Source: Sulfurimonas sp.
GTDB lineage: Bacteria; Campylobacterota; Campylobacteria; Campylobacterales; Sulfurimonadaceae
NCBI GenBank assembly: GCA_028684815.1
Contig: JAQUFE010000008.1
Span: 1-64,000 of the forward strand
DNA: 64,000 nucleotides
Direction: 5' to 3'
Shown here: in pieces, positions 5,026-63,481 of the stretch
Layout: the number at the start of each line of letters is the position of its first letter
Numbering within the stretch: the first letter of the stretch is position 1
The notes under the pieces: generated by a model
What the model saw: only the letters and a program-made list of their open reading frames with translations
Told to the model about the DNA's origin: nothing
Databases searched by the model: none
Position numbers and translations under genes: made by a program

Positions 5026-5166
5026 AAAATCATTCTTCTTTACTAACATAGCTCGAATTTTAATATACAAAGCATTCAAATTATCCATTAAATATTGAAC
5101 TTACTTATATATTAACTATTTTTATGTTAGTCTGAATATCTAAAAGTAACATCGTGCAGTAACAAT

Positions 5167-5285
5167 AATTGAGTCTTCTGAACAATTATGAAATTAGATC
5201 CTCAGTCAAGTTCATGATGACGCATGTCCCGTCATTTCGTGCTTGACACGAAATCTAGTTTACAAATTAATCAGAGGGTTCAATT
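5167..5285 (+). repeat. Family A composite palindromic MITE-like element, copy A1
   Basis: aattgagtcttctgaacaatta...tcatttcgtgcttgacacgaaatctagttta..attaatcagagggttcaatt. Confidence 0.8.
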
Positions 5286-5326
5286 GCCATTTACACAGTT
5301 TAAATTTTTACATAAAGAGGAAAAAA

Positions 5327-9109: not shown

Positions 9110-9267
9110 ATACTTTTCGCAAATGATGGTTTGTAAACCATTAAAGTTTTAATGGCTTTTCGCAAGCGATGCTTTTTACGTCCTTAAAGTTTCAATCACT
9201 TTTCGGAAGCGATGCTTTTAGGAATGCTAACCAATGGCATTCTCCACTGTGAGGCTTTGAAGCCTAC
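9110..9267. repeat. Family C intergenic repeat, copy C1
   Basis: cttttcgcaagcgatgcttttt / cttttcggaagcgatgcttttaggaatgctaaccaatggcattctccactgtgaggctttgaagcc. Confidence 0.65.
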
Positions 9268-9385
9268 AATTGAGCCTTCTGATTAATATCTAAACTAGAT
9301 TCCGTGTCAAGCACGGAATGACGGAACACTGGTCATCCTGAACTTGATTCAGGATCTACCTTAATAATTGTTCAGAGTACTCAAT
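9268..9385 (-). repeat. Family A element, copy A2 (reverse orientation)
   Basis: aattgagccttctgattaat..ctagattccgtgtcaagcacggaatgac...tcatcctgaacttgattcaggatc...taataattgttcagagtactcaat. Confidence 0.85.
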
Positions 9386-10668
9386 CATACAAAAGCAAAA
9401 ACCAAGATTGGAAAGGTGATAACTAACCCTAGTGCTAGGAGTTGTAGAAGTATAAAAGGGATGATGCCTCTGTATATTTCACTAGTGCTCACACTATCCC
9501 CAGCTACGCCTTTTAGAAAAAAGAGCGCTAGTCCAAAAGGTGGCGTTAAAAAAGAGGCTTGAAGATTTAGCGCTATAAGGATTGCAAACCAGAGAGGGTC
9601 GATGCCAAAGCCTATCATAACAGGGACTAAGATTGGTACGATGATAAAAGATATCTCTATAAAATCTATAAAAAAACCAACTACAAAGATGACGAGCATT
9701 GAGATTGCTATAAAAAACCAGACATTTCCTATATCTTCATGAAAAAACTCAACTATAGCGTCAGTTCCTCCAAGCTCATTAAAGACAAGAGAAAATGCAG
9801 TAGATGCGATGAGTATCATAAATATCATACCGCTTAGTTTCACACTTCCTAGCGAGGCGTACTTTAGCATCTCAAAGTTAAGTGACTTGTTTATAACACT
9901 TAAAATTATCGCACCGATAACGCCAAAAGCGGCAGACTCAGTAGGAGATGCAATGCCTGCAAAGATACTTCCTAGGACTGAGAACATCAAAAGAAGTGGC
10001 GGAATTATAGAGAGAAGTATCTCTTTTATAGATACTTCTTTAACCTCTTTTGGGATTGGAGCTAATTCTGGAGAAAAATAGGAGCGGACTAAAATATATA
10101 CGATGTAGAGAGTAACAAGAAGAGCTCCTGGCAAAACTGCACCCATAAACAACTCGCCCACACCAACACTCATAACATCGCCTAAGATGATTAGAATGAT
10201 GGAAGGAGGTATGATTTGTCCGAGTGTTCCAGATGCTACGATGGTCGAAGATGCCAAAGATTTGTCATATCCAGCGCGAAGCATAAGTGGAAGTGCAATA
10301 ACGCTCATCATTACCACAGATGCAGAGACTATGCCAGTTGAAGCTGCGAGCATCGCACCGACTAAAACTACACTAACAGCCAAGCCCCCACGGACATCAC
10401 GAAACAGAGCACTCATGGAGACTAGAAGCCTCTCTGCCATTTTTGATTTCTCTAGTATAAGCCCCATTGCAATAAAGAGTGGAACTGCCATCAGCGTTGA
10501 GTTGCTCATGATTCCATAGATGCGAAGAGATAAAATATCAAAGATGCCAAAGCCTAACTCTGGTATAAAAAAAGCAAAAACGATTGCAACACTTCCAAAA
10601 ACAAAAGCAACAGGGATGCCCAAAAGTAGAAGTGCTAAAATAGTTATAAATATAGCTATAGCCATCAT
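9385..10668 (-). CDS. dctM: TRAP transporter large permease (DctM)
   Basis: 427 aa, polytopic; GIPVAFVFGSVA, ASGTLGQIIPPSIILIILGDV, FLTPPFGLALFFLKGVA typical of DctM. Confidence 0.9.
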   Translation of the reverse strand: MMAIAIFITILALLLLGIPVAFVFGSVAIVFAFFIPELGFGIFDILSLRIYGIMSNSTLMAVPLFIAMGLILEKSKMAERLLVSMSALFRDVRGGLAVSVVLVGAMLAASTGIVSASVVMMSVIALPLMLRAGYDKSLASSTIVASGTLGQIIPPSIILIILGDVMSVGVGELFMGAVLPGALLVTLYIVYILVRSYFSPELAPIPKEVKEVSIKEILLSIIPPLLLMFSVLGSIFAGIASPTESAAFGVIGAIILSVINKSLNFEMLKYASLGSVKLSGMIFMILIASTAFSLVFNELGGTDAIVEFFHEDIGNVWFFIAISMLVIFVVGFFIDFIEISFIIVPILVPVMIGFGIDPLWFAILIALNLQASFLTPPFGLALFFLKGVAGDSVSTSEIYRGIIPFILLQLLALGLVITFPILVFAFV

Positions 10669-12634: not shown

Positions 12635-13371
12635 TATTTATGCTCCAAAGTTTTTAAAAAAATATTTTTTATCTCATTTGAGACTTCTTTAGCATGATTC
12701 ATAAAAAAGTAGTGATCTCCATCATAGATTTTTAGAGTTGAATCTTTTAAAAGTTTTTGCATCTTATGTGCAATACTCAGTGGCGTAGCTGTGTCTTTAT
12801 CTCCCCAGCAAAGCAGTGTTTTAGCATCACTTGAGCTAAACTCTTCACTCAAATCTTCATCTATAACATTTTTAAAAGTCTGATACATCGGCTCACTCAA
12901 ACTCTTTGCATCTTCAGCCACAAAGAGTGAACGAAACTTTGCAAGTCCAAAGAGTTTAAATAGTTTATATATAGCTATCTTAAGTCTTATTTTTAATGGT
13001 TTTGGCACCATAATTCCAGTACTTCCAACAAGTATAAGAACCTTTGGTTCAAGTAAGAGAGCAACTTTTCCACCAAAAGAGTGCCCTAAGATGATATCTT
13101 TTGAAGCATTTATATGAATCATAAAAAGTTCAACTATTCTTGCATAGTCTTTAGTATTTAGTGCCACACAAGAGGTACTTTTACCAAATCCTGGTAGATC
13201 TATATAGATATGCCTAAATGCACTCATATATGGATGAAATGAGTTCTTCATAAGCTCTTTATTGCTTCCCCAACCAGGTAAAATTATCAAGTCAACTGGC
13301 GCTTCAGGGTTTAGTATCTCATAGCTTATATCAAAAGTGTGCTGATTATACTGGATAGACTTTAGAGCCAT
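12634..13371 (-). CDS. Alpha/beta hydrolase
   Basis: LPGWGSNKELM, ILGHSFGGKVALLL nucleophile elbow, LLCWGDKDTATP, DGDHYFF. Confidence 0.85.
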   Translation of the reverse strand: MALKSIQYNQHTFDISYEILNPEAPVDLIILPGWGSNKELMKNSFHPYMSAFRHIYIDLPGFGKSTSCVALNTKDYARIVELFMIHINASKDIILGHSFGGKVALLLEPKVLILVGSTGIMVPKPLKIRLKIAIYKLFKLFGLAKFRSLFVAEDAKSLSEPMYQTFKNVIDEDLSEEFSSSDAKTLLCWGDKDTATPLSIAHKMQKLLKDSTLKIYDGDHYFFMNHAKEVSNEIKNIFLKTLEHK

Positions 13372-14408
13372 TATTTACCTTTTGCCTTTGAAATTGAGTG
13401 AATATAGTCGTAGTTTGTTTTTGCTCTTCTTTGTGTGGGAAGAGATGAAGTTAGTAGTTCTAGGGAAGCTTTAAAATCATCAAAAAGATAGTTAGCCATA
13501 GAACCTGGGATTGGATTTACCTCGTTTAGATAAACTTCTGAATTTAGAACAAAAAAGTCACATCTAATGAGTGCGCCCTCAAAGAGATTTTCATAGATTT
13601 TCTCAAATGTTGACTTTAATTTTGCTTCAATTGCTGGGCTTAGTTCTGCTTTTTCCACACTCCCAGAACGAGAAAAATCCATATACTTTTTTTCAAAGTC
13701 TAAAAATTCATTTTTTTGTGGCTCTTCTATTATAGAGAAGTGAAACTCTCCTTTTGCCATAAATCCAGCTAGATTGTACTCTTTTATACCACACATAAAA
13801 GGCTCTATTATAACTGACTTATCAAACTCAAAAGCGACATCTAAAGCGTAGTCTAACTCACTCTCTTCCTTTACTATGCTAACACCAATAGAACTTCCAA
13901 GTCTTGCAGGCTTAACTATAATTGGGTACTTTATATTTATATTTTTATGTTCATTTGATGAGAGAACTTCATACTCTATGGTCTTGATTTTTTTAGCTTC
14001 GCAAAGCCATTTTGTATATCTCTTATCATAAGAAAAAACACTAGCATCTACCCTAGGCCCGATATACTTAATATCAAAAAAATCAAGCAAAGATGCAATA
14101 GTTCCATCTTCTCCATCAGCTCCATGAATAAGGTTTAAAACAACACCCGCATGTTTAGTTGAGCTAAACATTCCTTTTTGCTCAAAGTAGCCATTTGTAA
14201 GATTTACTTGTGGCATCCCTTTATGTTCACCTCTAGAAAAGGTGTTAGCCTTCATCTTTGATGGTTCTATAAGATAAAACTTATGATCTTGGTCACAAAA
14301 TATAAAAGTTAGTTCATATGTTGATAGCTTTTCTCTTAAAGTTATGGCGCTTACTATGCTAATTTCATGTTCAAAACTAGCCCCACCAAATAAAATTGTT
14401 AATTTCAA
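13371..14408 (-). CDS. ddl: D-alanine--D-alanine ligase
   Basis: MKLTILFGGASFEHEISIVSA...IVKPARLGSSIGVS...LNEVNPIPGSM. Apparent TTG start at 14408, 7 nt after a repeat hairpin containing the SD. Confidence 0.92.
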   Translation of the reverse strand: MKLTILFGGASFEHEISIVSAITLREKLSTYELTFIFCDQDHKFYLIEPSKMKANTFSRGEHKGMPQVNLTNGYFEQKGMFSSTKHAGVVLNLIHGADGEDGTIASLLDFFDIKYIGPRVDASVFSYDKRYTKWLCEAKKIKTIEYEVLSSNEHKNINIKYPIIVKPARLGSSIGVSIVKEESELDYALDVAFEFDKSVIIEPFMCGIKEYNLAGFMAKGEFHFSIIEEPQKNEFLDFEKKYMDFSRSGSVEKAELSPAIEAKLKSTFEKIYENLFEGALIRCDFFVLNSEVYLNEVNPIPGSMANYLFDDFKASLELLTSSLPTQRRAKTNYDYIHSISKAKGK

Positions 14409-14695
14409 AATAGATTTCCTTAATTTTATTTTATAAAATGAAGGAAGCCCTTCATCTTATTTGTCCGTAGAAGGAACAAGTCCCTTCTACTTCGCTCACG
14501 CCGCTGAGACGACTAAAGCTAGCTCTTTAAAAAAAGAGCAGAATTATTTGTCCGTAAAAGGAACAACTCCCTTCTACTTCGCTCACGCCGCTGAGACGAC
14601 TCATCGTGGGAATGCCATTGGTTAGCATTCCTAAAAGCTAGCTCTTTAAAAAAAGAGCAGAATTATTTGTCCGTAAAAGGAACAACTCCCTTATA
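14409..14695 (-). repeat. Family B 5'UTR element, copy B1 upstream of ddl, with tandem upstream units
   Basis: Hairpin 14416-14446 (ttccttaattttattttataaaatgaaggaa on +) plus three ttgtccgta(g/a)aaggaac units at 14461, 14548 and 14667. Confidence 0.82.
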
Positions 14696-24812: not shown

Positions 24813-24867
24813 ATAACTTTCTCATCAGATGCATCAAGATGAAGAGAGAGTCACAAAAGGCATCCTC

Positions 24868-24997
24868 AAAAAGGCACTAGTGCCGAGAGCCTTGCGCTGA
24901 GCAAAACCAAGTGTTAGCGTAGCTAAAGGGACTTGTTCCTTTAGCGTGACAAAATGAGATGGAGGTTTCCTTCATTTTATAAAATAAAATTAAGGAG
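24868..24997 (+). repeat. Family B 5'UTR element, copy B2 upstream of the coiled-coil/apt/trpB genes
   Basis: gctaaagggacttgttcctttagcgtgacaaaa..ttccttcattttataaaataaaattaagga then ATG at 25007. Confidence 0.85.
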
Positions 24998-25006
24998 TAG
25001 AGCTTT

Positions 25007-25339
25007 ATGTTTTGGGAATGGTCACTTTTAACAATTTTATCAATTCTTTGCGTCTATCTCTTCGTAAAGATGTACTACTTTAAGAGCATTACAAGTAAAG
25101 AACAAAGAGGAAACGACCTGATGAAGTTAACACTTCAAGAGGCTGAAATCCTAATTAGAAAGTATCAAATACAACTCCAAAGAGCATTGGGAAATGTTGA
25201 TATCCTAAGTGAAGAACTTACAAAACTTAGAAATGAGCTAAAAGTTTTAAAACAAAGAAATACTAAACATAGACAAGAAACAGACCGTCTAAATGGTAAA
25301 ATCAAAGCACTAGAGGGTCGCATCGATGCTCTATTATAA
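25007..25339 (+). CDS. Hypothetical membrane-anchored coiled-coil protein
   Basis: N-terminal TM ([25 protein letters not shown]) then an extended heptad-rich region; SD from the upstream repeat element. Confidence 0.75.
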
Positions 25340-27101: not shown

Positions 27102-27127
27102 GCTGATGGTTTTTCATCTTTAGGTAC

Positions 27128-27245
27128 AATTGAACCCTCTGATTAAATTATAAACTAGATTCCGTGTCAAACACGAAATGATGGAACACAAGTCATACTC
27201 AACTTGATTTGGGATCCATTTGATAATTCTTCAGAGCATTCAATT
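27128..27245 (-). repeat. Family A element, copy A3 (reverse orientation)
   Basis: aattgaaccctctgattaaa..ctagattccgtgtcaaacacgaaatgatgg...acttgatttgggatcc..taattcttcagagcattcaatt. Confidence 0.82.
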
Positions 27246-27273
27246 AAGATAAATTTATCTCAAGGAGATTGAT

Positions 27274-30393: not shown

Positions 30394-31494
30394 ATGGGTG
30401 TAAGTATAGGTCTAGTAGGACTTCCAAATGTCGGTAAATCAACAACATTCAACGCATTAACAAAAGCACAAAACGCAGAGGCTGCAAACTATCCATTTTG
30501 TACCATAGAGCCAAACAAAGCTGTAGTTCCAGTTCCAGATAAGAGACTTGCTGAACTTGCAAAAATTGTAAAGCCTGAGAGGATTCAATACTCTACCCTA
30601 GATTTCGTAGATATCGCAGGTCTAGTAAAGGGTGCATCAAAAGGTGAAGGACTTGGAAACAAGTTCCTCTCAAACATCCGTGAAACTGAGGTTATACTTC
30701 AAATTGTAAGATGTTTTGATGATGAAAATATTGTCCACAACGAAGGCAGTATTGACCCACTTCGAGATGTTGAGATTATCGAGGGTGAGCTTATCTTAGC
30801 TGATATTGAAGTCTTATCAAACCGCATTGATAGGCTCAAAAAACAAGCTAAGGCCGATAAGAGTGCTAAAGAGATGCTAGACATGGCAGAAGAACTAATG
30901 GAGTTTTTAGCTGAGGGTGAATTAGCAAGAAACTTCAAAGATGCCGACACTGATGTTTACAGACAGCTAAATGCTGAAGTTAGATTTTTAACCAACAAAG
31001 AGATTATGTACGGAGCTAACACTGATGAAGAAGGACTCCTAGAAGACAACGCTTATGTAGTAGCTCTTAGAGATCATGCCGCTAAAAACAACTGTGAGAT
31101 TATAAAACTTTGTGCAAAGATAGAAGAAGAGCTTATTGGTCTTGAAGATGATGAAGCTGAGGAGTTTTTAACAGACTTAGGAGTTAAAGAGTCAGGACTA
31201 GAGCAGATTATACAAAAAGGTTTTGATAAACTTGGACTTATGAGCTACTTTACTGCGGGTGTTAAAGAGGTTAGAGCTTGGACTATTAGAAAAAACTCAA
31301 CTGCACCAAGAGCAGCTGCTGCCATTCACAATGACTTTGAAAAAGGTTTTATCCGTGCAGAAGTCATATCTTATGAAGATTTTATAACTTATGGTGGAGA
31401 AGCAAAAGCAAAAGAAGCTGGAAAGATGAGACTTGAGGGAAAAGAGTACATCGTAAATGATGGCGATGTTATGCATTTTAGATTTAATGTTTAA
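30394..31494 (+). CDS. ychF: Redox-regulated ATPase YchF
   Basis: MGVSIGLVGLPNVGKSTTFNALTKAQ...NYPFCTIEPN...AWTIRKNSTAPRAAAAIHNDFEKGFIRAEVISYEDF. Start corrected from 30355. Confidence 0.95.
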   Translation: MGVSIGLVGLPNVGKSTTFNALTKAQNAEAANYPFCTIEPNKAVVPVPDKRLAELAKIVKPERIQYSTLDFVDIAGLVKGASKGEGLGNKFLSNIRETEVILQIVRCFDDENIVHNEGSIDPLRDVEIIEGELILADIEVLSNRIDRLKKQAKADKSAKEMLDMAEELMEFLAEGELARNFKDADTDVYRQLNAEVRFLTNKEIMYGANTDEEGLLEDNAYVVALRDHAAKNNCEIIKLCAKIEEELIGLEDDEAEEFLTDLGVKESGLEQIIQKGFDKLGLMSYFTAGVKEVRAWTIRKNSTAPRAAAAIHNDFEKGFIRAEVISYEDFITYGGEAKAKEAGKMRLEGKEYIVNDGDVMHFRFNV

Positions 31495-31517
31495 AATGAT
31501 AAAATAATGTCATAAAA

Positions 31518-31636
31518 CTTAGCGCACCCCGAAGGAAGTACCCTTGGGGTATTAGCGTAGCCAAAGGGACTTTGTTCCTTTGGCGTGACAAAAACAAATG
31601 GAGGTTTCCTTCATTTTATCTAATAAAATTAAGGAA
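31518..31636 (+). repeat. Family B 5'UTR element, copy B3 upstream of hypothetical gene 31643
   Basis: gccaaagggactttgttcctttggcgtgacaaaa..ttccttcattttatctaataaaattaaggaa then ATG at 31643. Confidence 0.85.
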
Positions 31637-31642
31637 ATTACT

Positions 31643-32242
31643 ATGGAATTAAAATATGTTGGTCCAAAGCCTATTATCTCTCACACTGGAATAGAGTTTG
31701 ATAATAATAAAGAAGATAAATTTGTCTACTTAAATATAGCAGTCCAGCTTATAAAAGCACTTAACCACGACTATTTTGAAGATAAAACATATACATATGA
31801 AGCTTCGACTAAGAGACTAAGTAATAAAGATCTCTTTGATGAGATAAAAAAAATATGTCCAAACTTAAATGAACTTATGAATAAACAAAACCATGATGTA
31901 GAGCAAGAAATAGAGCATAATTTAAAAAGAGCTCAAGAAAACAGTGTACTAAATGAAGAAAATAGAGAAGTTTTGTACAACAACATAACTATTATGCGCG
32001 ATTATCTTATTCAAAGGTCTGTCAATAAAAGTGTCTATTATTGTATTATACAAGCACTTGCAGAAATGTTGAAAAAAGATAATATCAACTATGTTATCGC
32101 CCCACTATTTCATAATTTTGCTCATGTTCTACACTCAGTTCAAGGAAGTCTAAAAAGACAAAAAAATCCCATAGAAACTGCTATAGAAGTTTATCAACAA
32201 GACAAAGAGCTCTTAGTAAAATTAAAAGTAATTAACAGATAA
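31643..32242 (+). CDS. Hypothetical protein
   Basis: MELKYVGPKPIISHTGIEFDNNKEDKFVYL...; start corrected from 31598 because the repeat-derived SD aaggaa is 6 nt upstream of this ATG. Confidence 0.75.
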   Translation: MELKYVGPKPIISHTGIEFDNNKEDKFVYLNIAVQLIKALNHDYFEDKTYTYEASTKRLSNKDLFDEIKKICPNLNELMNKQNHDVEQEIEHNLKRAQENSVLNEENREVLYNNITIMRDYLIQRSVNKSVYYCIIQALAEMLKKDNINYVIAPLFHNFAHVLHSVQGSLKRQKNPIETAIEVYQQDKELLVKLKVINR

Positions 32243-38153: not shown

Positions 38154-38236
38154 TTATTCCTAATCGTTTGTTTAGTAAAACTATATAGTAATGAGTTTAA
38201 AATAAGCTCAATTTTCTTTTTTTTAGCAAAAAAAGT

Positions 38237-38391
38237 AATTGAATGCTCTGAACAATTATTAAGTTGGATCCTGAATCAAGTTCAGGATGACGCGTATCTT
38301 GTCATTCCATGCGTGTCCGTCATTCCGTGCGTGTTCGTCATTCCGTGCTTGACACGGAATCTAGTTTATAGATTAATCAGAAGATTCAATT
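38237..38391 (+). repeat. Family A element, copy A4, with internal 18-bp tandem units
   Basis: aattgaatgctctgaacaatta..gatcctgaatcaagttcaggatgac..gtcattccgtgcttgacacggaatctagtttatagattaatcagaagattcaatt. Confidence 0.88.
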
Positions 38392-38483
38392 TATTCATTT
38401 TAATCTATACTATCTCTATAAACTTACTTGACTTTAAAAAATAAATCTGTTATTATTTTGTACTTTTAAAAAAAGGATATGTT

Positions 38484-38912: not shown

Positions 38913-39178
38913 GTATAGATGCTGAGGAATTCTCAGCGACATCGTGACAAAATATCAAAATCGCACCAGTGCGATGGGCTTCCTGCCGAAGGAAACCAAG
39001 CGTTAGCGTAGATGGCGGAATTACTTCCGACATCGTAATAAAAACATCAAAATCGCACCAGTGCGATGGGCTTCCTGCCGAAGGAATCTCAGCGATAGCG
39101 TAGATGGCGGGATTACTCCCGACATCGTGACAAAACAAATGAAGGGTTCTCTTCATTTTATGAAATAAAATTAAGGAA
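38913..39178 (+). repeat. Family B 5'UTR element, copy B4 upstream of cysK
   Basis: Two ~95-bp units with atcgcaccagtgcgatgggcttcctgccgaaggaa, then ttctcttcattttatgaaataaaattaaggaa and ATG at 39187. Confidence 0.85.
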
Positions 39179-39186
39179 ATAGACTT

Positions 39187-40107
39187 ATGAAAATAGCACA
39201 AAATGTTACTGAATTGATTGGAAACACTCCACTTGTAAAGATAAATAGCATCTCAAATGAGACAAACACGACCATACTCGGCAAATGCGAGTTTTTGAAT
39301 CCTACTAGCTCTGTAAAAGATAGAATTGCTCTCGCTATGATTGATGTGGCAATAGCTGATGGACTGATAAACAAAGAGACTCTTATCATCGAGCCAACGA
39401 GTGGAAATACTGGGATTGGGCTTGCAATGGTTTGTGCTTCAAAAGGTTTAAAGCTCACTCTTACTATGCCAGAATCTATGAGTCTTGAGAGACGTCAACT
39501 ACTCACTGCACTTGGTGCTAACATAGTTTTAACTCCAGCTCCACTTGGAATGAAGGGTGCGATTGATGAGGCTGCTAAGTTAAATGAAGAGAATAAAAAT
39601 AGTTTCATGCCTCAACAGTTTAACAACCCAGCAAATCCTGCTGTGCATAAAGAGACTACTGCACAGGAGATATTAAGAGATACAGATGGCAAGATTGACA
39701 TCTTTGTTGCAGCAGTTGGAACTGGTGGCTCTTTAACGGGAATAGGAGAAGCTCTAAGAGAGCACAATCCTAACATAGAGATTATCGCAGTTGAGCCAAC
39801 AAGTTCGCCTGTTCTCTCTGGAGGAAAAGCAGGGCCTCATAAGATTCAAGGCATCGGTGCTGGTTTTACTCCAAAAGTACTAAACTGTGACCTCTTCAAT
39901 GAAGTTATCCAAGTAAGTGATGAAGATGCTTTTGCCTCTTCAAAAGATTTAGCAAAGAGTGATGGACTTTTAGTTGGCATCTCAGCTGGAGCAAATGCTT
40001 ACGCTGCAAAACTTGTGGCCCAAAGAGAGCAAAATAGAGGAAAAACGATAGTTACAATTCTTTGTGATACGGGAGAGAGATACCTTAGTACTGCTCTTTA
40101 CTCGTAA
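39187..40107 (+). CDS. cysK: Cysteine synthase
   Basis: IGNTPLVKINSIS...EFLNPTSSVKDRIALAM...EPTSGNTGIGLAMVCASKG...GTGGSLTGIGEAL. Confidence 0.95.
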   Translation: MKIAQNVTELIGNTPLVKINSISNETNTTILGKCEFLNPTSSVKDRIALAMIDVAIADGLINKETLIIEPTSGNTGIGLAMVCASKGLKLTLTMPESMSLERRQLLTALGANIVLTPAPLGMKGAIDEAAKLNEENKNSFMPQQFNNPANPAVHKETTAQEILRDTDGKIDIFVAAVGTGGSLTGIGEALREHNPNIEIIAVEPTSSPVLSGGKAGPHKIQGIGAGFTPKVLNCDLFNEVIQVSDEDAFASSKDLAKSDGLLVGISAGANAYAAKLVAQREQNRGKTIVTILCDTGERYLSTALYS

Positions 40108-40121
40108 TTGGATGATAATAT

Positions 40122-41444
40122 ATGAAAAAAAATAACGACATTTTTAGACCTTTTGTAGATGCAGATATAAGTTTTAGTGAAATTTCCGAGGATATCATCG
40201 GGGTAAATAAAGAAAATTACTTTGACTATACGGCATCTGGGCTTGCCTTTAAACCTATAGAGGATAGACTTCAAGAGGTTTTACAAACTTACGCAAACAC
40301 TCACTCAGAGTTTGCAAGTGATGCTAAAACTACCTCTTTTTACTACGATATAGCGAGAGAAAATCTTAAAAAGCATCTTGAGCTTGAGAGTGACTTTGTT
40401 CTGCTTCCTTGTGGAAGTGGAGCAACTGGCGCTATCAAGAAGTTTCAAGAGCTATTAGGGCTCTACATCCCACCAGCAACTAGAGCTAGATTTAAGATAG
40501 ATTTGAAGATGCAAAAGCCTCTTATCATCATAGGACCATTTGAGCATCACTCTAATGAGATAAGCTATAGAGAGGGAGTTTGTGACACTCTAAGAGTCCC
40601 TCTTGATATGACTGGAAATGTGGACTTAGAATTTTTAGCAGATGCACTAGAGAAAAACAAGCATCGAGAGTTAATTGGTGCATTTTCTACAGCTTCAAAT
40701 GTAACTGGCATCATCCCTCCATACGTGGAGATATCCAAACTACTTAGAAGCTATGGGGCTATTGTAGCCTTTGATAGTGCGGCATCTTCGCCATGCCTCA
40801 ATGTTGACTCTCGGTTATTTGATGCTCTATTTTTATCGCCTCACAAGCTTTTGGGTGGACCTGGAACTTGTGGACTTTTGGCCATTAGAAAAAAGCTTAT
40901 AAATGAGAAAGATTCCCCTACTTTTGCAGGTGGAGGAACTGTGGCTTATGTCTCGCCAGATGAGCATATCTTTAACTCTGATATTGAGATTCGTGAAGAT
41001 GCAGGAACTCCTGCAATACTCCAACTCATAAAAGCTTCTTTTGCTTATCAACTAAGGGGTGAGATAGGGATTAAACGGATTCAAGAGAGAAAAGTCGAGC
41101 TATTTAAGATTCTAAAAGAGTCACTAAAAGATGTAGGCGAACACACCATCTATGGGCAAAATCAAGCTCATAGTAGTGTCGGCATCTTAGCTATAAACTT
41201 TCACGGAGTAACACCTTATGAGCTTTGCGAAAAACTCTCGCTTAACTTTGGCATCCAAACAAGAGCAGGATGTAGTTGCGCAGGACCTTATGGGCATGAC
41301 CTCTTTGGGATAAGTAAGGTTTTAAACAAAAATGAAAAACCAAGCTGGCTAAGGATTAGCGTAAACTATACTCACAGCATAGAAAGCATAGAGCATCTAG
41401 TTGAAGCTCTAAAAATTTCAGTAAAAGAGCTAAAGAATAAATAA
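40122..41444 (+). CDS. Class V aminotransferase / cysteine desulfurase-like PLP enzyme
   Basis: FDYTASGLAFKPIED...SPHKLLGGPGTCGLL Lys motif; IQTRAGCSCAGPYGHDL. Confidence 0.85.
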   Translation: MKKNNDIFRPFVDADISFSEISEDIIGVNKENYFDYTASGLAFKPIEDRLQEVLQTYANTHSEFASDAKTTSFYYDIARENLKKHLELESDFVLLPCGSGATGAIKKFQELLGLYIPPATRARFKIDLKMQKPLIIIGPFEHHSNEISYREGVCDTLRVPLDMTGNVDLEFLADALEKNKHRELIGAFSTASNVTGIIPPYVEISKLLRSYGAIVAFDSAASSPCLNVDSRLFDALFLSPHKLLGGPGTCGLLAIRKKLINEKDSPTFAGGGTVAYVSPDEHIFNSDIEIREDAGTPAILQLIKASFAYQLRGEIGIKRIQERKVELFKILKESLKDVGEHTIYGQNQAHSSVGILAINFHGVTPYELCEKLSLNFGIQTRAGCSCAGPYGHDLFGISKVLNKNEKPSWLRISVNYTHSIESIEHLVEALKISVKELKNK

Positions 41445-41445
41445 C

Positions 41446-41617
41446 CGGACCTTCTGATTAATATATAAACTAGATTCCGTGTCAAGCACGGAATGACGGA
41501 ACATAAGGATCCAACTTAATACTCGTCATCCTGAACTTTCTTTGGGATCTAACCTGATATTCGTCATCCTGAACTTGATTCAGGATCTAACTTAATAATT
41601 CTTCAGAGCATTCAATT
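41446..41617 (-). repeat. Family A element, copy A5, duplicated right hairpin
   Basis: ggaccttctgattaatatataaactagattccgtgtcaagcacggaatgacgg...tcatcctgaacttgattcaggatctaacttaataattcttcagagcattcaatt. Confidence 0.85.
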
Positions 41618-41713
41618 GAACTAACATATAAGACACTAAGACAATAATTTGATAGTTAAACTTTGCTAATTTTATAGCAAATGTGCTTTGTTGAAAATAA
41701 TCTTATCTATATA

Positions 41714-42058
41714 CTAAAAATCTAGCTCTAGCTGCATCAAGTACATATCCTCTCCATCAAGGATATCAAGATCAGGACTCTGGCATGCAGGGCAATAATA
41801 CTCTATCCCTTCTATGGTTGATTCAACTAAACAGCTATTGCATTTAACAATAATTTGCTGCATATTTATAACAAACTCTGCCTCTTCGCAGAGTGTCTTT
41901 TCCTTAAATGTCTCAAATGCAGTTCTTAAAAGTTCAGGTTCAACACCACTCATCACGCCTATTTTTATGACAACTTTAGTTACTTTTTTTGCATTGTTCT
42001 TTATTGCATTCTCTTCACAAGAGTCTAAAAGAGACTGGACTATACTATATTCATGCAT
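41714..42058 (-). CDS. hypA: Hydrogenase nickel insertion protein HypA
   Basis: [18 protein letters not shown]...CNSC...[21 protein letters not shown]; Ni-binding MHE and two CxxC. Confidence 0.95.
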
Positions 42059-42062
42059 CTGT

Positions 42063-42260
42063 ATTCCTTGATTTTATTTTATAAAATAAAGGGAATCCTT
42101 TATTTATTTTATCACGATATCGAAAGTAATTCCGCTATCTACGCTAACGCTTGGTTTCCTTCGGCAGGAAGCCCATCGCACTGGTGCGATTTTAATGTTT
42201 TATCACGATATCGGAAGTAATTCCGCTATCTTTGCTAACTTTCCTTCGGCACTTGTGTCT
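42063..42260 (-). repeat. Family B 5'UTR element, copy B5 upstream of hypA, overlapping the 3' end of hypX
   Basis: Reverse strand: gcaccagtgcgatgggcttcctgccgaaggaaaccaagcgttagcgtagatagcgg..tccctttattttataaaataaaatcaaggaatacagATG(hypA). Confidence 0.85.
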
Positions 42261-43898
42261 CTTAAGTCTTTCTGGTGTTTGTAGAGAGCACACTTTATAT
42301 ACAAAATCATATCTTAGTTTATGAAAAGAGCTATCTTCTTCCCAAAACTCTCTATACATAACTCTTAACTCTTCTTCTTTTTTTTGCTCAATTAGGGAGC
42401 TATTTTGAGATAAACAGTCCTCTTTTTCATATAAAAAATCATCATAACTCTCCCCATCTTCGCATTGTTTTTGAGCAAACTCGTTTAAAGATTGAAAATA
42501 ACTAGCATATCCAAAAATTTTATCTATCATTCCTAGCTTAAGTGCACTATTTACACTGATGGGCAGACACTCATCTAAAAGTTCGCCTGCTTTTTCCTCG
42601 CCAACTCTTTTTGATAACGAAAAAGTGTGATATTCACTCCCACTTAGCCCCAAAGTTTTATAGTGCGGATTTAAAACCACTCCCTCTTGTGCTACTACGA
42701 AGTCACAGGCGAGTGCCAAAAAGACTCCGCCTGCTCCTGCATTTCTATGTAGAGATGCGATTGTTATAACTTCATCTGCAAAGAGTATAGACTTTACTAC
42801 ATCATTCATAGCATTTATATTACTCCAACCATCCTCGCCCTGCTTTTTTGAATCTTGTAAGATATTTAGATGGATGCCATTACTAAAAAAATCCTCTCCC
42901 CCCATCAAAACTATAACTTTGCAGCTCTCTTTTAAGTAGTCAAACGCATATTTTAACCTTATACACTGCTCAGAGTGCATGGCTCCGTTATGAAAATTAA
43001 AGTAGAGATATCCAACATCGTCTATAACTTTAGAACTAATCTCATGAAATGTTATATCTCCAACTTCACTAATCAGAGGTATTCGCACTTCCTTAACACC
43101 TTTTATCTTCTCTTTTAGAGCGTAAGTTGATGGAAGTTTAAATCTGCCAAGCTCTTGCATATGACTTATCCAGAGTGCTCCATCAACTGTGCCAACGCAA
43201 ACTGCACCATCTCTTTTTGCGATTATCTCTTTTGGTGCCCCTCTTAAACTCTCCTCTTGCCATGCACCAAAAAGATAGCACTCTAAGCCTAAAAACTCAT
43301 CTTTAACACCTGGATAACTATCACTCATATATATCTTTTTTATAATCTCTTTTGTAGTCTCTTTTTCCCAGTCTATGGCTCTATCTTGTTGTGAGAGATA
43401 GTGGTGCATCTCGGATTTTAACTGTGGAGTAGGTTTGAAATCTTTATTGGTTAAATTTGCAAGTAACTCTTTTAGAGCCTTTGATGCAGCACGCGCTACC
43501 TCATTTCTATAGATAGAAGCCTTGTAAGTACCACGCATCACAAATCTAACTTCTGCGTAAATATCTCCGCCATCAAGCTCTTCATTTGCCTTAAGGATTA
43601 CAACTCCCCACTCACTTTTTTCCTCTCTTATGGCATGATCTAGCGAGTTGTGACCTCTATCGCCTCTAATACCTGGATGGAGTATAAAAGTTGGAGTATT
43701 TAAAAATATCTCTTTTGGGAGATACTTTTTCAGATAGGGAGAAAAAATAATATCTGGCGCAAACTCTTCAACACTCTGCATCATCGCTTCACTACTTATT
43801 GCATACTGCACCGAGATTTCGTGATTCATATCTCGAAGCTCACAAAATAGCCGCTGAGTAAGAGAGTTAAAAGCCGATACGATGAGTAGTATTTTCAT
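42192..43898 (-). CDS. hypX: HypX/HoxX hydrogenase maturation protein (formyltransferase + enoyl-CoA hydratase domains)
   Basis: HPGIRGDRGHNSLDHAI...ELDGGDIYAEVRF formyltransferase-like; MGGEDFFSNGIHLNIL...NAGAGGVFLALACDFVVAQEGVVLNPHYKTLGLSGSEYHTF hydratase-like. Start trimmed from 43931. Confidence 0.9.
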   Translation of the reverse strand: MKILLIVSAFNSLTQRLFCELRDMNHEISVQYAISSEAMMQSVEEFAPDIIFSPYLKKYLPKEIFLNTPTFILHPGIRGDRGHNSLDHAIREEKSEWGVVILKANEELDGGDIYAEVRFVMRGTYKASIYRNEVARAASKALKELLANLTNKDFKPTPQLKSEMHHYLSQQDRAIDWEKETTKEIIKKIYMSDSYPGVKDEFLGLECYLFGAWQEESLRGAPKEIIAKRDGAVCVGTVDGALWISHMQELGRFKLPSTYALKEKIKGVKEVRIPLISEVGDITFHEISSKVIDDVGYLYFNFHNGAMHSEQCIRLKYAFDYLKESCKVIVLMGGEDFFSNGIHLNILQDSKKQGEDGWSNINAMNDVVKSILFADEVITIASLHRNAGAGGVFLALACDFVVAQEGVVLNPHYKTLGLSGSEYHTFSLSKRVGEEKAGELLDECLPISVNSALKLGMIDKIFGYASYFQSLNEFAQKQCEDGESYDDFLYEKEDCLSQNSSLIEQKKEEELRVMYREFWEEDSSFHKLRYDFVYKVCSLQTPERLKRHKCRRKVSKDSGITSDIVIKH

Positions 43899-43902
43899 CT
43901 CT

Positions 43903-44901
43903 TTAACAGATCCTAGGAAGAAGTTCACCACTTGGAGTATCTAAAAATCTAGAAGTTCCCCAGCTGCTCTTTAAGATAACTTTCTTTAGATGAGTGTCTG
44001 TTACCTTGCCAATTGTCGTGGCTTTTGAACAATTAGGAAATCCCTTTAAAATCTCAACTGCTCTTTGCGCATCTGTTTGATTTACAGCAAGCACAAAAGT
44101 ACCCTCATTTGCTAAAGTGGTCGCTTCAAAGCCTAGCATCTCACAGATACCTTTTACTTCATCGCTTACAGGAATATTCTCTTCTTCAACCTCAATGCAG
44201 ATATTTGACTGTTTTGCCCACTCATTTAAAACTGCGCTAACACCGCCTCTAGTGGCATCTCTCATGGCAGTTATTTTTATGTTCGCATCTAAAAGAGCTT
44301 TTACTTGAGGATAGAGCGATTCACAATCACTTTGAAGAGCACTACTCATCTCAATCCCCTCTCGAGCCACAAAAATAGCCGCCCCATGACACCCAATATC
44401 ACGGTTTACTATGATGATATCATCCTTGCTTATGTTGTTAGAACTGATACCTTTTTTTATAACTTCGCCGATCCCGCTAGTGTTTATAAAAATCTTATCA
44501 ACACTCCCACGAGGCACAACCTTAGTGTCACCACTAACAACAATAGCCCCATTAATCTCAAGCTCTTTTTTCATACTTCGCACGATTTTCTCTAACTCTC
44601 TTGTGCCAAAACCCTCTTCAATAATCACACTACAAGTAAGATATTTAGGCTTCGCACCCATCATAGCCAAATCATTACAAGTCCCACAAACAGCAAGTTT
44701 ACCGATGTCAGCTCCAGCAAAAAAGAGAGGTGAGACCGTAAAACTATCAGTAGAAAACGCAAGTTCGCCATTATGAATAATAGCCGCATCTTCACTTTTC
44801 TCTAAAATCTCATTTTTAAAAGCCTTATAAAAAACCTTAGAGATAAGTTCATTATTCTCCTCCCCACCATTCCCACAAGCTAAACTTATTGTTTTGTTCA
44901 T
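43903..44901 (-). CDS. hypE: Hydrogenase maturation protein HypE
   Basis: ACGNGGEENNELI...GDTKVVPRG...DATRGGVSAVLNEWA; C-terminal PRIC. Confidence 0.95.
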   Translation of the reverse strand: MNKTISLACGNGGEENNELISKVFYKAFKNEILEKSEDAAIIHNGELAFSTDSFTVSPLFFAGADIGKLAVCGTCNDLAMMGAKPKYLTCSVIIEEGFGTRELEKIVRSMKKELEINGAIVVSGDTKVVPRGSVDKIFINTSGIGEVIKKGISSNNISKDDIIIVNRDIGCHGAAIFVAREGIEMSSALQSDCESLYPQVKALLDANIKITAMRDATRGGVSAVLNEWAKQSNICIEVEEENIPVSDEVKGICEMLGFEATTLANEGTFVLAVNQTDAQRAVEILKGFPNCSKATTIGKVTDTHLKKVILKSSWGTSRFLDTPSGELLPRIC

Positions 44902-51411: not shown

Positions 51412-51470
51412 ATTTATTGTTCTGAATAGGTATTCATATTATATGTTTTTAAAATAAATCTAATATAAAC

Positions 51471-51579
51471 TGAGTATTTTGAACAATCATTAAATCAGAT
51501 CCTGAATCAAGTTCAGGATGACGCGTGTAACGTCATTTAGTGTTTGATACGAAATCTAGTTTATACACTAGGTCCAATT
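51471..51579 (+). repeat. Family A element, copy A6 (degenerate), between hypF and hypB
   Basis: ctgagtattttgaacaatcattaaatcagatcctgaatcaagttcaggatgacgcgtg..gtttgatacgaaatctagtttatacactaggtccaat. Confidence 0.75.
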
Positions 51580-51592
51580 TTATATTTTCTTA

Positions 51593-53821
51593 TTATCCAA
51601 TTTTATATTTCTTATTATATGATAAAACATAATAAGCCTGCCCTAAGGCAATGCCACCATCGTTAATAGCACTCTCTTGCTGTGAATGATATTTTATTTT
51701 CTCTTGCCCTAACGCTTGACTCACAAGCTCTAAGAGCGTTTTATTTTGAAACACACCGCCGCTTAAAACCACTTCTAATTTTTCGATTTTTGAAATATCT
51801 GTGATGATTTTTACTAGAGTATTTATTAGCATAGAACTGAGCTCATCTTTATCCATTTTACCCTTTAAAATATACTCAACTATTTTTATATCAATCACAT
51901 TGTTATCTATAGTATAGTCGAAGCATTTTACTATATTTTCATCATAATAGCTCTCACCCAAAAGCCCACTCTCACCCTCATAACTTATAAACTGAGCAAT
52001 ATTTGAAAAAGAAGCAATAGCATCAAAGAGTCTTGCTACGGAGCTTGTTTTTGGTGCATTGAGATTTTTTATATAACTCTGATGGAGCATCTTTATCTCA
52101 GATGCTACAAAAGATTTAACAACATCAAACTCTAGCTCTAAAACCTCTTCTAAGCTTAGCTCGTCAAAAAGCATACTAAGAGCAACTCTTCTTGGTTCTT
52201 TTATGGCTTTATCTGCACCTAAAAGTTTAATCCCTTTAAAGCTATATTTGCGAGCATCTCCTACAAAAATCTCTCCACCCCAAAGAGTGCCATCATCCCC
52301 ATAACCAGTGCCATCAAAACTAAATCCAAGATAATCCCCACTAAGTCCAAATTCCGCCTTACAAGCATAGATGTGGGCTAAATGGTGTCCAACTTCTAAA
52401 AGCTCACAGTTTTGTTTTTTTGCCCACTTTGTTGTCTCATAATTTGGGTGTTTATCATGAACTATAATATCAGGCTCAAAATCGTAAAACCTTTTAAAGC
52501 TCTCTAGTGTTCGCTCAAAAAAACCAAATGCCTCCATAGAGTCCAAATCCCCTATATGAGGAGATAAGATGATATTATCCCCAATTACAAAAGCTACAGA
52601 GTTTTTTGCATTTGCACCAACTGCTAAGATTTTTTTCTCACTCTTAAATGGAAGTTTTATAACCTTAGGTGCGAAGCCTCTTGAGAGCCTTAAAGTCTGC
52701 ATCTCTGCACCAACTACTTGGACTAAACTATCATCAACTCCGTTGATTATCTCTCTATCAAAATCGAGTGTAAAATCAACAAAAGGAAGTTTTTTAAAGA
52801 TATCTTTAGCGCTTATAATTATAGGCTCATCTCCAAGATTTGCACTTGTTGCCACTATGGGGTTTTTAAGATGCATAAAAAGAAGATGATGAAGTGCATT
52901 GTAAGGCAAAAAACAGCCGATTCTATCAATCTTTGGAGCTACAAGAGATGAAATATTATTGCTGTTTGTAAGCTTTTTTAGCACTACAATAGGAGCTTCT
53001 TTAGATGCTAAAAGCTCTTCTTCTTTCTCGCTTACTTTAGCTAGTGACTCTATCTGCTGTAGGTCTCTGCACATAATTGCAAAGGGTTTTGCAGGTCTGT
53101 TTTTAAACTCTCTGAGCTTTTTTACTACATCATCATTTGTAGCATCACAAACTATATGAAATCCACCTATGCCTTTTATGGCTACAATCTCTGCACTCTC
53201 TATTAGAGATGCAACTTTTTTGATTATATCTTTTTCATCTACTCTTGTCTCGCCCCTAAAAAGAGACAAAATAGGTCCACACTCATTACATGAGATTGGC
53301 TGTGCGTGGTATCTTCTCAACTTAGGGTTTTTGTACTCATCTTCACATGAGCTGCACATCTCAAATTTCTGCATTGAGGTGTTTTTTCTATCATAAGGGA
53401 CTGTTTTTATGATGCTATATCTTGGACCGCAGTTTGTGCAGTTTGTGGCAAAATAGTTGTGGTACTTTTTACTATTTTTTACATCTGCTAAACACTCTTG
53501 ACATATTGCGATATCTGGGGAAATCAATGCCGTCTTTGAGATGCTTTGCTCACTTTGCATAATTATAAAGCTATTCTCTTTTACTAGCTCTATCTCTTTT
53601 TTTAGCATCTCATCAATTCTTGCAAGTGGTGGCAGTCTAAAGCAGAGTGAATCTTCAAAGAGTTTTATATCTTCATCCCTGCCCTGCACTTCAAGCTTAA
53701 CTCCGTAGGCATCGTTTTTAACAAAACCCACAAGAGAAAACTCTAATGCCCTCTTATATATAAAAGGGCGAAATCCAACGCCTTGAACCTGTCCTTTTAT
53801 ACTATAACTGACTCTTCTCAA
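51593..53821 (-). CDS. hypF: Carbamoyltransferase HypF
   Basis: GQVQGVGFRPFIYKRA acylphosphatase; CQECLADV..CTNCGPRYSI, CSSCEDEY..CNECGP zinc fingers; VVLSGGVFQNKTLLE. Confidence 0.96.
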   Translation of the reverse strand: MRRVSYSIKGQVQGVGFRPFIYKRALEFSLVGFVKNDAYGVKLEVQGRDEDIKLFEDSLCFRLPPLARIDEMLKKEIELVKENSFIIMQSEQSISKTALISPDIAICQECLADVKNSKKYHNYFATNCTNCGPRYSIIKTVPYDRKNTSMQKFEMCSSCEDEYKNPKLRRYHAQPISCNECGPILSLFRGETRVDEKDIIKKVASLIESAEIVAIKGIGGFHIVCDATNDDVVKKLREFKNRPAKPFAIMCRDLQQIESLAKVSEKEEELLASKEAPIVVLKKLTNSNNISSLVAPKIDRIGCFLPYNALHHLLFMHLKNPIVATSANLGDEPIIISAKDIFKKLPFVDFTLDFDREIINGVDDSLVQVVGAEMQTLRLSRGFAPKVIKLPFKSEKKILAVGANAKNSVAFVIGDNIILSPHIGDLDSMEAFGFFERTLESFKRFYDFEPDIIVHDKHPNYETTKWAKKQNCELLEVGHHLAHIYACKAEFGLSGDYLGFSFDGTGYGDDGTLWGGEIFVGDARKYSFKGIKLLGADKAIKEPRRVALSMLFDELSLEEVLELEFDVVKSFVASEIKMLHQSYIKNLNAPKTSSVARLFDAIASFSNIAQFISYEGESGLLGESYYDENIVKCFDYTIDNNVIDIKIVEYILKGKMDKDELSSMLINTLVKIITDISKIEKLEVVLSGGVFQNKTLLELVSQALGQEKIKYHSQQESAINDGGIALGQAYYVLSYNKKYKIG

Positions 53822-62758: not shown

Positions 62759-63058
62759 TGAAGAGGTACACTTGTATAATAGGAGAAGAAGTTCTTGTTC
62801 ACTCATTTTATAATCCTTTCATCACCACGATATAACCATTGTACTCTTATTTTTCATTAGTTTACTTGGAAGTTTTGTTAGTTTTTAACCATCACTATTT
62901 TAAGTCCTAAAGCACATTTAGCATTGCTAGGATTCTAAGAAGCATTGCTTCCGAAAGTCTGACAACTTTAAAGTCATATATTTTTTTCAAAAGCGAGGTT
63001 TTAACCTTGTAAATAAGAAGATTGTACTTGACTTTAAAGCTACACACCTCTTTTAATA

Positions 63059-63415
63059 AATTGAATGTTCTTAACAATTATTAGGTTGGATCCTGAATCA
63101 AGTTCAGGATGACAGTTTTGTTTGTTTGGGATGACGCGTGTTCCGTCATTCCGTGCTTGACACGGAATCTAGTTATAGATTAATCAGACAGTTTATTCCT
63201 TACAGTTTGTTTGCTCAAGGTGATGCGTGTCCCGTCGTCATTCCGTGCTTGACACGGAATCTAGTTATAGATTAATCAGACAGTTTATTCGTTTCAGTTT
63301 GTTTGCTCAGAATGACAGTTTATTCCTTACAGTTTGTTTGTTTGGGATGACGCGTGTTCCGTCATTCCGTGCTTGACACGGAATCTGGTTTATATATTAA
63401 TCAAAGGGTGTAATT
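63059..63415 (+). repeat. Family A element, copy A7, internally expanded (three right-hairpin units)
   Basis: attccgtgcttgacacggaatct at 63148, 63240 and 63364, flanked by aattgaatg and a degenerate end. Confidence 0.85.
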
Positions 63416-63481
63416 CACAATAACTTCACAAGAATAATGTATGATACAAAATACAAATATTATAAAAGAGGATTTTATAAA

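Follow-up and report, generated by a model that had tools for sequence, protein, structure and literature searches.

A candidate mobile leader cassette with a structured ribosome-binding site in Sulfurimonas and its relatives

Five near-identical hairpins in a 64,000-nt stretch of a Sulfurimonas genome (the window, meaning that whole stretch) end a few nucleotides before the start codons of five different genes. As the initial annotation had claimed, the sequence AAGGA within the 3' arm of the hairpin is the Shine-Dalgarno (SD) sequence. The question raised by this locus is whether such a hairpin hides the SD and works as a translational switch, or belongs to an element with another role.

Start-anchored hairpins in the window and in other genomes

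All five hairpins were present, with 0–3 mismatches to the consensus and 0 expected from 100 dinucleotide shuffles. Three of the five positions given at first were exact, but those ahead of cysK and hypA were off by 1–2 nt and are corrected in Table 1. It had been overlooked that conservation extends well beyond the hairpin, which forms only the 3' tip of a larger block. Directly upstream of it lies a further segment, A1 (together module H), and upstream of that a 95-nt module (module U), often in tandem.

Table 1. Positions of hairpins, modules U and H, neighbouring genes and a second repeat family in the window.
Feature	Position	Strand	Score or basis
Hairpin ahead of ddl; loop AAA; 7 nt to start codon	14416-14446	-	pattern match
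Hairpin ahead of ORF at 25007; loop AAA; 9 nt to start codon	24967-24997	+	pattern match
Hairpin ahead of ORF at 31643; loop CTA; 6 nt to start codon	31606-31636	+	pattern match
Hairpin ahead of cysK; loop GAA; 8 nt to start codon	39148-39178	+	pattern match
Hairpin ahead of hypA; loop AAA; 5 nt to start codon	42064-42094	-	pattern match
Module U, type A: hairpin S1, pseudoknotted S2, AGYGTTARCGTAG linker with mini-pseudoknot, hairpin S3	24862-24956	+	R2 covariance model, 94.9 bits
Module H, focal copy: A1 ATGGAGG 24959-24965, B CCTTCAT 24969-24975, HP2 stem-loop, SD arm A2	24951-24997	+	65.5 bits
SD AAGGA for ORF at 25007	24992-24996	+	sequence
ORF, 110 aa, no confident family, downstream of focal copy	25007-25339	+	
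Divergent U carrying GTACCCTTGGGGTAT palindrome	31487-31595	+	R2, 34.2 bits
Module H ahead of ORF at 31643	31590-31636	+	63.9 bits
ORF, 199 aa, no NCBIfam match	31643-32242	+	
Tandem U pair near cysK, first	38951-39045	+	R2, 105 bits
Tandem U pair near cysK, second	39043-39137	+	R2, 95.9 bits
Module H ahead of cysK	39132-39178	+	68.2 bits
cysK, cysteine synthase A	39187-40107	+	TIGR01139, 437 bits
Partial U, upstream member of tandem, overlapping 3' end of ORF 42192-43931	42196-42279	-	R2, 41.5 bits
Module U near hypA	42105-42199	-	R2, 103 bits
Module H ahead of hypA; A1 ATAAAGG / B CCTTTAT, a compensatory change in A1:B	42064-42110	-	58.7 bits
hypA	41714-42058	-	NF001839 / TIGR00100, over cut-off
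Type-B U near ddl, upstream tandem copy	14544-14656	-	R2, 26.6 bits; direct repeats D10/D14
Type-B U near ddl, GCTTTAGT..CAGCGGCGTGAGCGAAG	14456-14537	-	R2, 30.4 bits
Module H ahead of ddl (TTG start 14408)	14416-14462	-	67.6 bits
ddl, D-alanine--D-alanine ligase	13371-14408	-	NF002527, 375.7 bits (cut-off 310)
Second repeat family, sites	5160-5294, 9261-9388, 27125-27252, 38230-38406, 41428-41630, 51455-51595, 63055-63424		

Three further observations were made in the window. The ORF upstream of hypA (42192-43931) runs into the partial U, so that this U copy provides its C-terminal end and stop codon. At 31598, A1 contains an ATG from which the reading frame of the gene that follows would be 214 aa long rather than 199 aa; A1 could therefore also serve as an alternative start. 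A second dispersed repeat family, unrelated to U and H and with the core GTCATTCCGTGCTTGACACGGAATCTAG / GTCATCCTGAACTTGATTCAGGATC, occurs in both orientations in at least seven places.

In the genome that holds the window (G000, 2.27 Mb), the hairpin pattern matched 15 times on each strand and the reversed pattern not at all. A covariance model scan of the genome and its relatives, which the initial annotation had put forward as a check, was performed with a model of the tip of the element (R1, 47 nt; E-values are approximate). It found ~43 distinct copies in this genome; all but a few, which are upstream members of tandem arrays, stand immediately ahead of a start codon. The model matched 46 of the 61 genomes of the genus Sulfurimonas. 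Class-wide, R1 matches were present in 15 of 250 genomes: ten belong to Sulfurimonas, four to a further three genera of its family, and one (G118) to another family; in G118, five copies stand before purA-like, dnaK-like, and other genes.

A start-blind pattern scanned over GTDB genomes yielded 79 distinct copies (77 scorable), all in Sulfurimonas, Sulfurimonadaceae, or records with older or misassigned names. A start codon lay 4–13 nt after AAGG in 76 of the 77 copies, most commonly at 8–9 nt, and was ATG in 72; the corresponding values were 6% for random positions and 2.5% for the antisense strand. Enrichment of genome-wide copies before starts in sense orientation had been set beforehand as the test of portability, which this result does not refute. 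The view of the hairpin as part of a portable, sense-oriented and start-anchored 5'-leader module is thus upheld.

Targets of H named by family models were ddl, cysK, hypA, rplL, rplI, rplS, rpmA, and fabI. By sequence, we take dnaK, groEL, citrate synthase, rpoZ, glmS, tkt, secG, trxB, nusA, ilvC, leuC, and flagellar genes to be further targets. The downstream proteins formed 75 clusters, 40 of them with more than one member, a recurrence count somewhat inflated because a small number of entries in the two sets of loci come from the same genome. H recurs in several species at fabI, citrate synthase, dnaK, rplI, rpoZ, hypB, and flgD, and for approximately half of the H-bearing genes of this genome a relative with H was present elsewhere, many more than chance would give for ~60 clusters among ~2000 genes. 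The upstream gene was co-directional in 33 of 39 cases in this genome and in 59 of 69 named cases (ORF limit 110 aa), which fits positions inside operons.

Covarying helices of module H and predicted accessibility of the SD

Module H consists of A1 (AUGAAGG), B (CCUUCAUUUUAU), and A2 (AUAAAAUUAAGGA, containing the SD). A1 lies directly 5' of B, usually as AUGAAGG(G) or AUGGAGG, and its sequence complements the CCUUCAU in B; A1:B and the outer half of B:A2 are therefore mutually exclusive. The 5' arm of the hairpin hence has a second, competing partner, which the initial annotation had missed. The A1:B helix was complete (7/7) in 114 of the 134 copies of the first sequence family, with G.U pairs used in 49 of the 114. 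Compensatory changes in it include AUAAAGG/CCUUUAU (window copy at 42064 and C20:15701), AUGAAGA/UCUUCAU, AUGAAAG/CUUUCAU, and AUGGAGC/GCUUCAU. The single mismatch noted earlier between the hairpin arms is real: B7 and A2-25 are never paired (134/134 copies: C.U 128, C.A 3, U.C 2, A.A 1). B7 does pair, however, with A1, and where B7 is T, A1 has A and A2 has C. A second sequence family of H, AGGGAAAAGG-UUCCCUUAAAUUUAU..AUAAAUUAAAGGAA (rpoZ, glmS, ftsH, and others), has different letters, and its A1 again pairs with B.

A1:B energies were better than those of 2000/2000 partner permutations, also within the 19 copies with variant B, and the control pair A1:A2 gave no signal in partner permutation among copies. 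For the inner seven B:A2 pairs, 0 of 5000 permutations were equally good. Such permutations retain the shared ancestry of the copies; independent single-position compensations are visible by eye. The helices of module H do covary, as expected from the RNA-level structure claimed for it. The six outer B:A2 pairs, those over the SD, showed no covariation above chance (718 observed vs. 718.6 permuted), although, except for the terminal ones, they can form in >95% of copies, whereas the competing and stronger A1:B helix covaries. Since the SD itself cannot vary, the missing covariation on this side is weak evidence against hiding. The copies of H were collected through conserved B/A2, so divergent ones are missed and the conservation of these arms is not readable from the set.

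As the inner B:A2 pairs and A1:B covary and the SD-covering pairs do not, the conserved fold is best read as two neighbouring hairpins with the SD exposed: HP1, formed by A1 and the 5' part of B, and HP2, formed by the 3' part of B and the 5' part of A2 (UUUUAU-loop-AUAAAA), which would end just before the SD. B appears to follow A1 rather than the SD, and the fold looks built for an open SD rather than the hidden SD proposed at first.

Folding calculations point in the same direction. The mean energy at 37°C in 33 copies of this genome was −9.6 kcal/mol for A1:B and −6.5 kcal/mol for B:A2, and A1:B was predicted to be stronger at every temperature tried. The long SD-hiding B:A2 hairpin would be a competing and usually weaker state, by ~3 kcal/mol on average. 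The predicted ensemble openness of the SD was 0.56 for U+H, 0.52 for H alone, and about 0.05–0.07 without A1, by nearest-neighbour folding, which leaves out pseudoknots and coaxial stacking. Single copies differ widely in these predictions: the copy at 31606 is almost fully closed (0.03), and several others are open.

A sequestering switch, in the form first proposed, is not supported by these results. A revised switch would have two states, A1:B with the SD open and B:A2 with the SD hidden. The balance between them would be set by U as it folds, by a ribosome bound to the SD-like A1, by a small RNA, or by some trans factor, and H would serve as a portable regulon device for growth genes. It gains from the two exclusive helices, which lie within 2 kcal/mol of each other in 8–13 of the 33 copies, depending on temperature, from a mean predicted openness near one half, and from the recurrence of H at the same genes across species. 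The SD-covering pairs, however, do not covary, no common pathway is evident among the targets, no ligand-type aptamer or shared regulator was found, and most FabI orthologues lack the element. We regard such a switch as possible but not probable, and any signal that shifts A1:B to B:A2 would belong to it. More generally, a conspicuous SD-covering hairpin can be misleading if its arms are not checked for a competing partner.

Fold, distribution and apparent mobility of module U

Covariation in 67 aligned type-A copies supports a fold of U in which hairpin S1 is followed by S2, a short stem capped by a GCYGA loop, then by a linker and by hairpin S3; two small pseudoknots are added to these three hairpins. 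In the first pseudoknot, an RGC triplet just 5' of S2 pairs with GCY of the S2 loop (outer pair 28-39: GC 36, AU 30, GU 1). An alternative pairing of the S2 loop with the linker was dropped, since it is the triplet 5' of S2 that covaries. The linker holds a second pair of crossing helices, AAC:GUU and GY:RC, that forms a mini-pseudoknot. Pairing was possible in 96.9% of cells vs. 76.7% in shuffled alignments, with 322 double changes vs. 88.6; compensation was present in 20 of 23 pairs, and the signal was lost when partners were slid. Type-B copies, such as those before ddl, have another S2 and linker on a plan that, judged by eye, is comparable. The foot before S3 is usually GTAG in type A and GAAG or GGAG in type B. 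The loops of S1–S3 in several copies hold short palindromes, e.g., GTACCCCTTGAGGGTA(T) at 31523-31555 and in the S3 loops of L008, L044, and L052, as if small palindromes inserted into U hairpin loops.

With Rfam 15 at gathering and relaxed thresholds, the window gave only a tRNA, single copies had no plausible weak match, and none of the Rfam ribozyme families matched U or H. U can therefore be described as a covarying pseudoknotted RNA absent from Rfam. No description was found in open-access literature on Sulfurimonas repeats, riboswitches, and start-linked stem-loops; the main texts of a 104-candidate survey and a 50-genome survey do not mention these bacteria.

This genome contains ~50 strong U copies, almost all in sense orientation. 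They precede H and a start codon (44–54 nt), another U, or a plain ribosome-binding site and start codon (12–19 nt; rplK, citrate synthase, and a purS-like gene). Exceptions are one copy before tRNA-Trp and one facing a tRNA 3' end. In the ribosomal operon from tRNA-Trp to rplL (L265, G000:C57:76490-79707), U occupies three gaps, one of them directly before the tRNA. Class-wide, U was detected in 37 of 250 Campylobacteria genomes and 11 of the 55 genera sampled, and a single genus outside the family had many genomes with at least 16 copies each; in other genera, about half of the inspected copies do not precede a start codon. U is therefore the wider element, and the start-anchored H belongs mainly to the Sulfurimonas family. 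A relative (G232:C1) carries four identical pairs of overlapping U matches, the two of each pair in opposite orientation (762785-762942, 1641300-1641457, 1817659-1817816, and 2223017-2223174), possibly linked to rRNA operons. Phage records gave no match. In plasmid records a single U was present, in Sulfurovum mangrovi, where it is intergenic and runs antisense to the neighbouring genes.

Complete U+H units occur in tandem (C20:123162-123615; also in C49, C90, and C96), and the tandem order of U is direct, not inverted. Among FabI orthologues from 29 genomes, three carry U+H; in the rest, a short spacer or another palindrome follows the upstream gene, which by sequence context is presumably tpiA. 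On the gene tree, the three occur in scattered positions (3 changes, the same as in shuffles; modest support). A related pair without and with U is represented by L251 and L245. In most species the start of rplI overlaps the upstream stop codon or sits within ~25 nt of it; G000 and the genome G032 have U+H exactly in that gap. Repeated gain or loss of U+H at orthologous genes is apparent from these sequence comparisons. In G286, a relative, direct repeats of 21–31 nt flank three of the four U copies (L365, L366, and L367), which is the best hint at an insertion mechanism. With regard to the features of a MITE, direct repeats or target-site duplications around U in this genome were not above those of permuted pairs, and no terminal inverted repeat common to U copies was noticed. 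Tandem copies, scattered presence at orthologues, and the flanking repeats in G286 argue for mobility of U+H.

The same features would suit a selfish intergenic element without leader function, which would persist at sites of least harm and for which a ribosome-binding site at the right distance would be camouflage that permits survival between cistrons. The tandem arrays, the scattered presence on the FabI tree, the G286 repeats, and the many U copies of other genera away from start codons all accord with it. We consider it unlikely, since the strong copies of this genome are almost never elsewhere or antisense, compensation maintains both HP1 and HP2, and recurrence at the same genes in different species is much more frequent than chance predicts.

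With modest confidence, we instead propose that U+H is a mobile leader cassette of Sulfurimonas and its relatives that would provide a structured but accessible ribosome-binding site. In a transcribed leader, U would fold into S1, S2 with its loop paired to the 5' triplet, the mini-pseudoknot linker, and S3. A1 would act as a built-in anti-sequestor by pairing away B, so that HP1 and HP2 stop short of the SD, leaving it single-stranded in the cell 8–9 nt from the start codon. By insertion between cistrons, presumably through some form of transposition, the cassette would equip the gene behind it with a ribosome-binding site that is standard, self-contained and insulated by structure, and the translation of that gene would become independent of the upstream neighbour. 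A bolder extension, which we find doubtful, holds that U is an undescribed catalytic or ribosome- or protein-binding RNA and that U+H is a natural transposable expression insulator, spreading between Campylobacteria operons and separating a cistron's translation from that of the genes upstream.

Weaker alternatives and known systems

An RNA thermometer, in which the SD-hiding hairpin melts on warming, had also been proposed, and it would agree with an A/U-rich hairpin over the SD and with the heat-shock genes dnaK, groEL, and ftsH among the targets. In a FourU/ROSE-like thermometer, the SD would be paired when cold and open when warm; here its predicted openness was nearly flat (0.49, 0.53, 0.56, and 0.62 at 10, 25, 37, and 50°C, respectively) and is therefore evidence against it; most targets are not heat genes and the competing A1:B helix is the stronger at each temperature tried, so we regard a thermometer as very unlikely. 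A DNA-level operator or protein-binding palindrome is scarcely credible: H is near-palindromic and present in many copies, but G.U pairs keep HP1 and the U helices, the crossing pseudoknot pairs covary, the spacing is fixed to start codons rather than promoters, and the upstream gene is usually co-directional.

If the cassette reading is true, the cargo that U+H carries as a mobile element would be a folded ribosome-binding site. Core genes as unlike as those for ribosomal proteins, biosynthesis, chaperones, and flagella could thereby acquire one translation leader, and genes with this leader would be freed from translational coupling to the upstream gene. U, being covarying, pseudoknotted, absent from Rfam, found in 11 of 55 genera, and present in at least 16 copies per genome in many cases, is an approachable target for structural and functional work.

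One general likeness is to pneumococcal BOX, ERIC, and similar elements, which are small, multi-copy, modular and transcribable intergenic stem-loop elements, sometimes located before genes. U+H is likewise modular, multi-copy, intergenic, and built of stem-loops; unlike them, it has one sense orientation, a fixed SD-start spacing, covarying pseudoknots, and an internal ribosome-binding site. RiboJ-type synthetic insulators consist of a ribozyme plus a hairpin ahead of the ribosome-binding site. U+H resembles them in its folded upstream part followed by a hairpin predicted to keep the SD open, but it is natural and repeated, and we know of no cleavage activity of U.

REP/REPIN elements with RAYT (TnpA-REP) are palindromic intergenic repeats with a GTAG/GGAG foot 5' of the palindrome; type-A U usually has GTAG before S3, and a Y1 transposase is encoded in this genome. 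U differs from them in its direct tandem order, in a Y1 gene that it does not flank, and in its start-codon anchoring. A link to a Y1/RAYT-like transposase was rejected, since there was no U match around either Y1 locus. Like U+H, translational preQ1 and SAM/SAH riboswitches have 5' leaders with pseudoknots, there near the SD, and a helix that competes and can hide the SD, whereas U+H has targets without a common ligand pathway, many copies per genome, tandem arrays, and no Rfam match. U has a conserved pseudoknotted core; the targets, from ddl, cysK, and hypA to rplI, rplL, rplS, rpmA, fabI, and others, do not form one pathway, as those of a metabolite riboswitch would.

The tisB leader is reported to have a pseudoknotted structure upstream of a possibly sequestered ribosome-binding site and to involve ribosome standby (PMC7708055). 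By analogy, a pseudoknotted structure upstream of the ribosome-binding site may be the common trait, present at a single gene in tisB and at many genes in U+H. In marine Beggiatoaceae, dozens of sense TAACTGA repeats stand before the starts of unrelated genes, and a translational role was proposed for these unstructured 7-nt sequences, which overlap the ribosome-binding site and mostly occur without an SD (PMC4679880). Both repeats are sense-oriented and precede unrelated starts; a U+H copy, however, is a long leader that folds and has an SD at its end.
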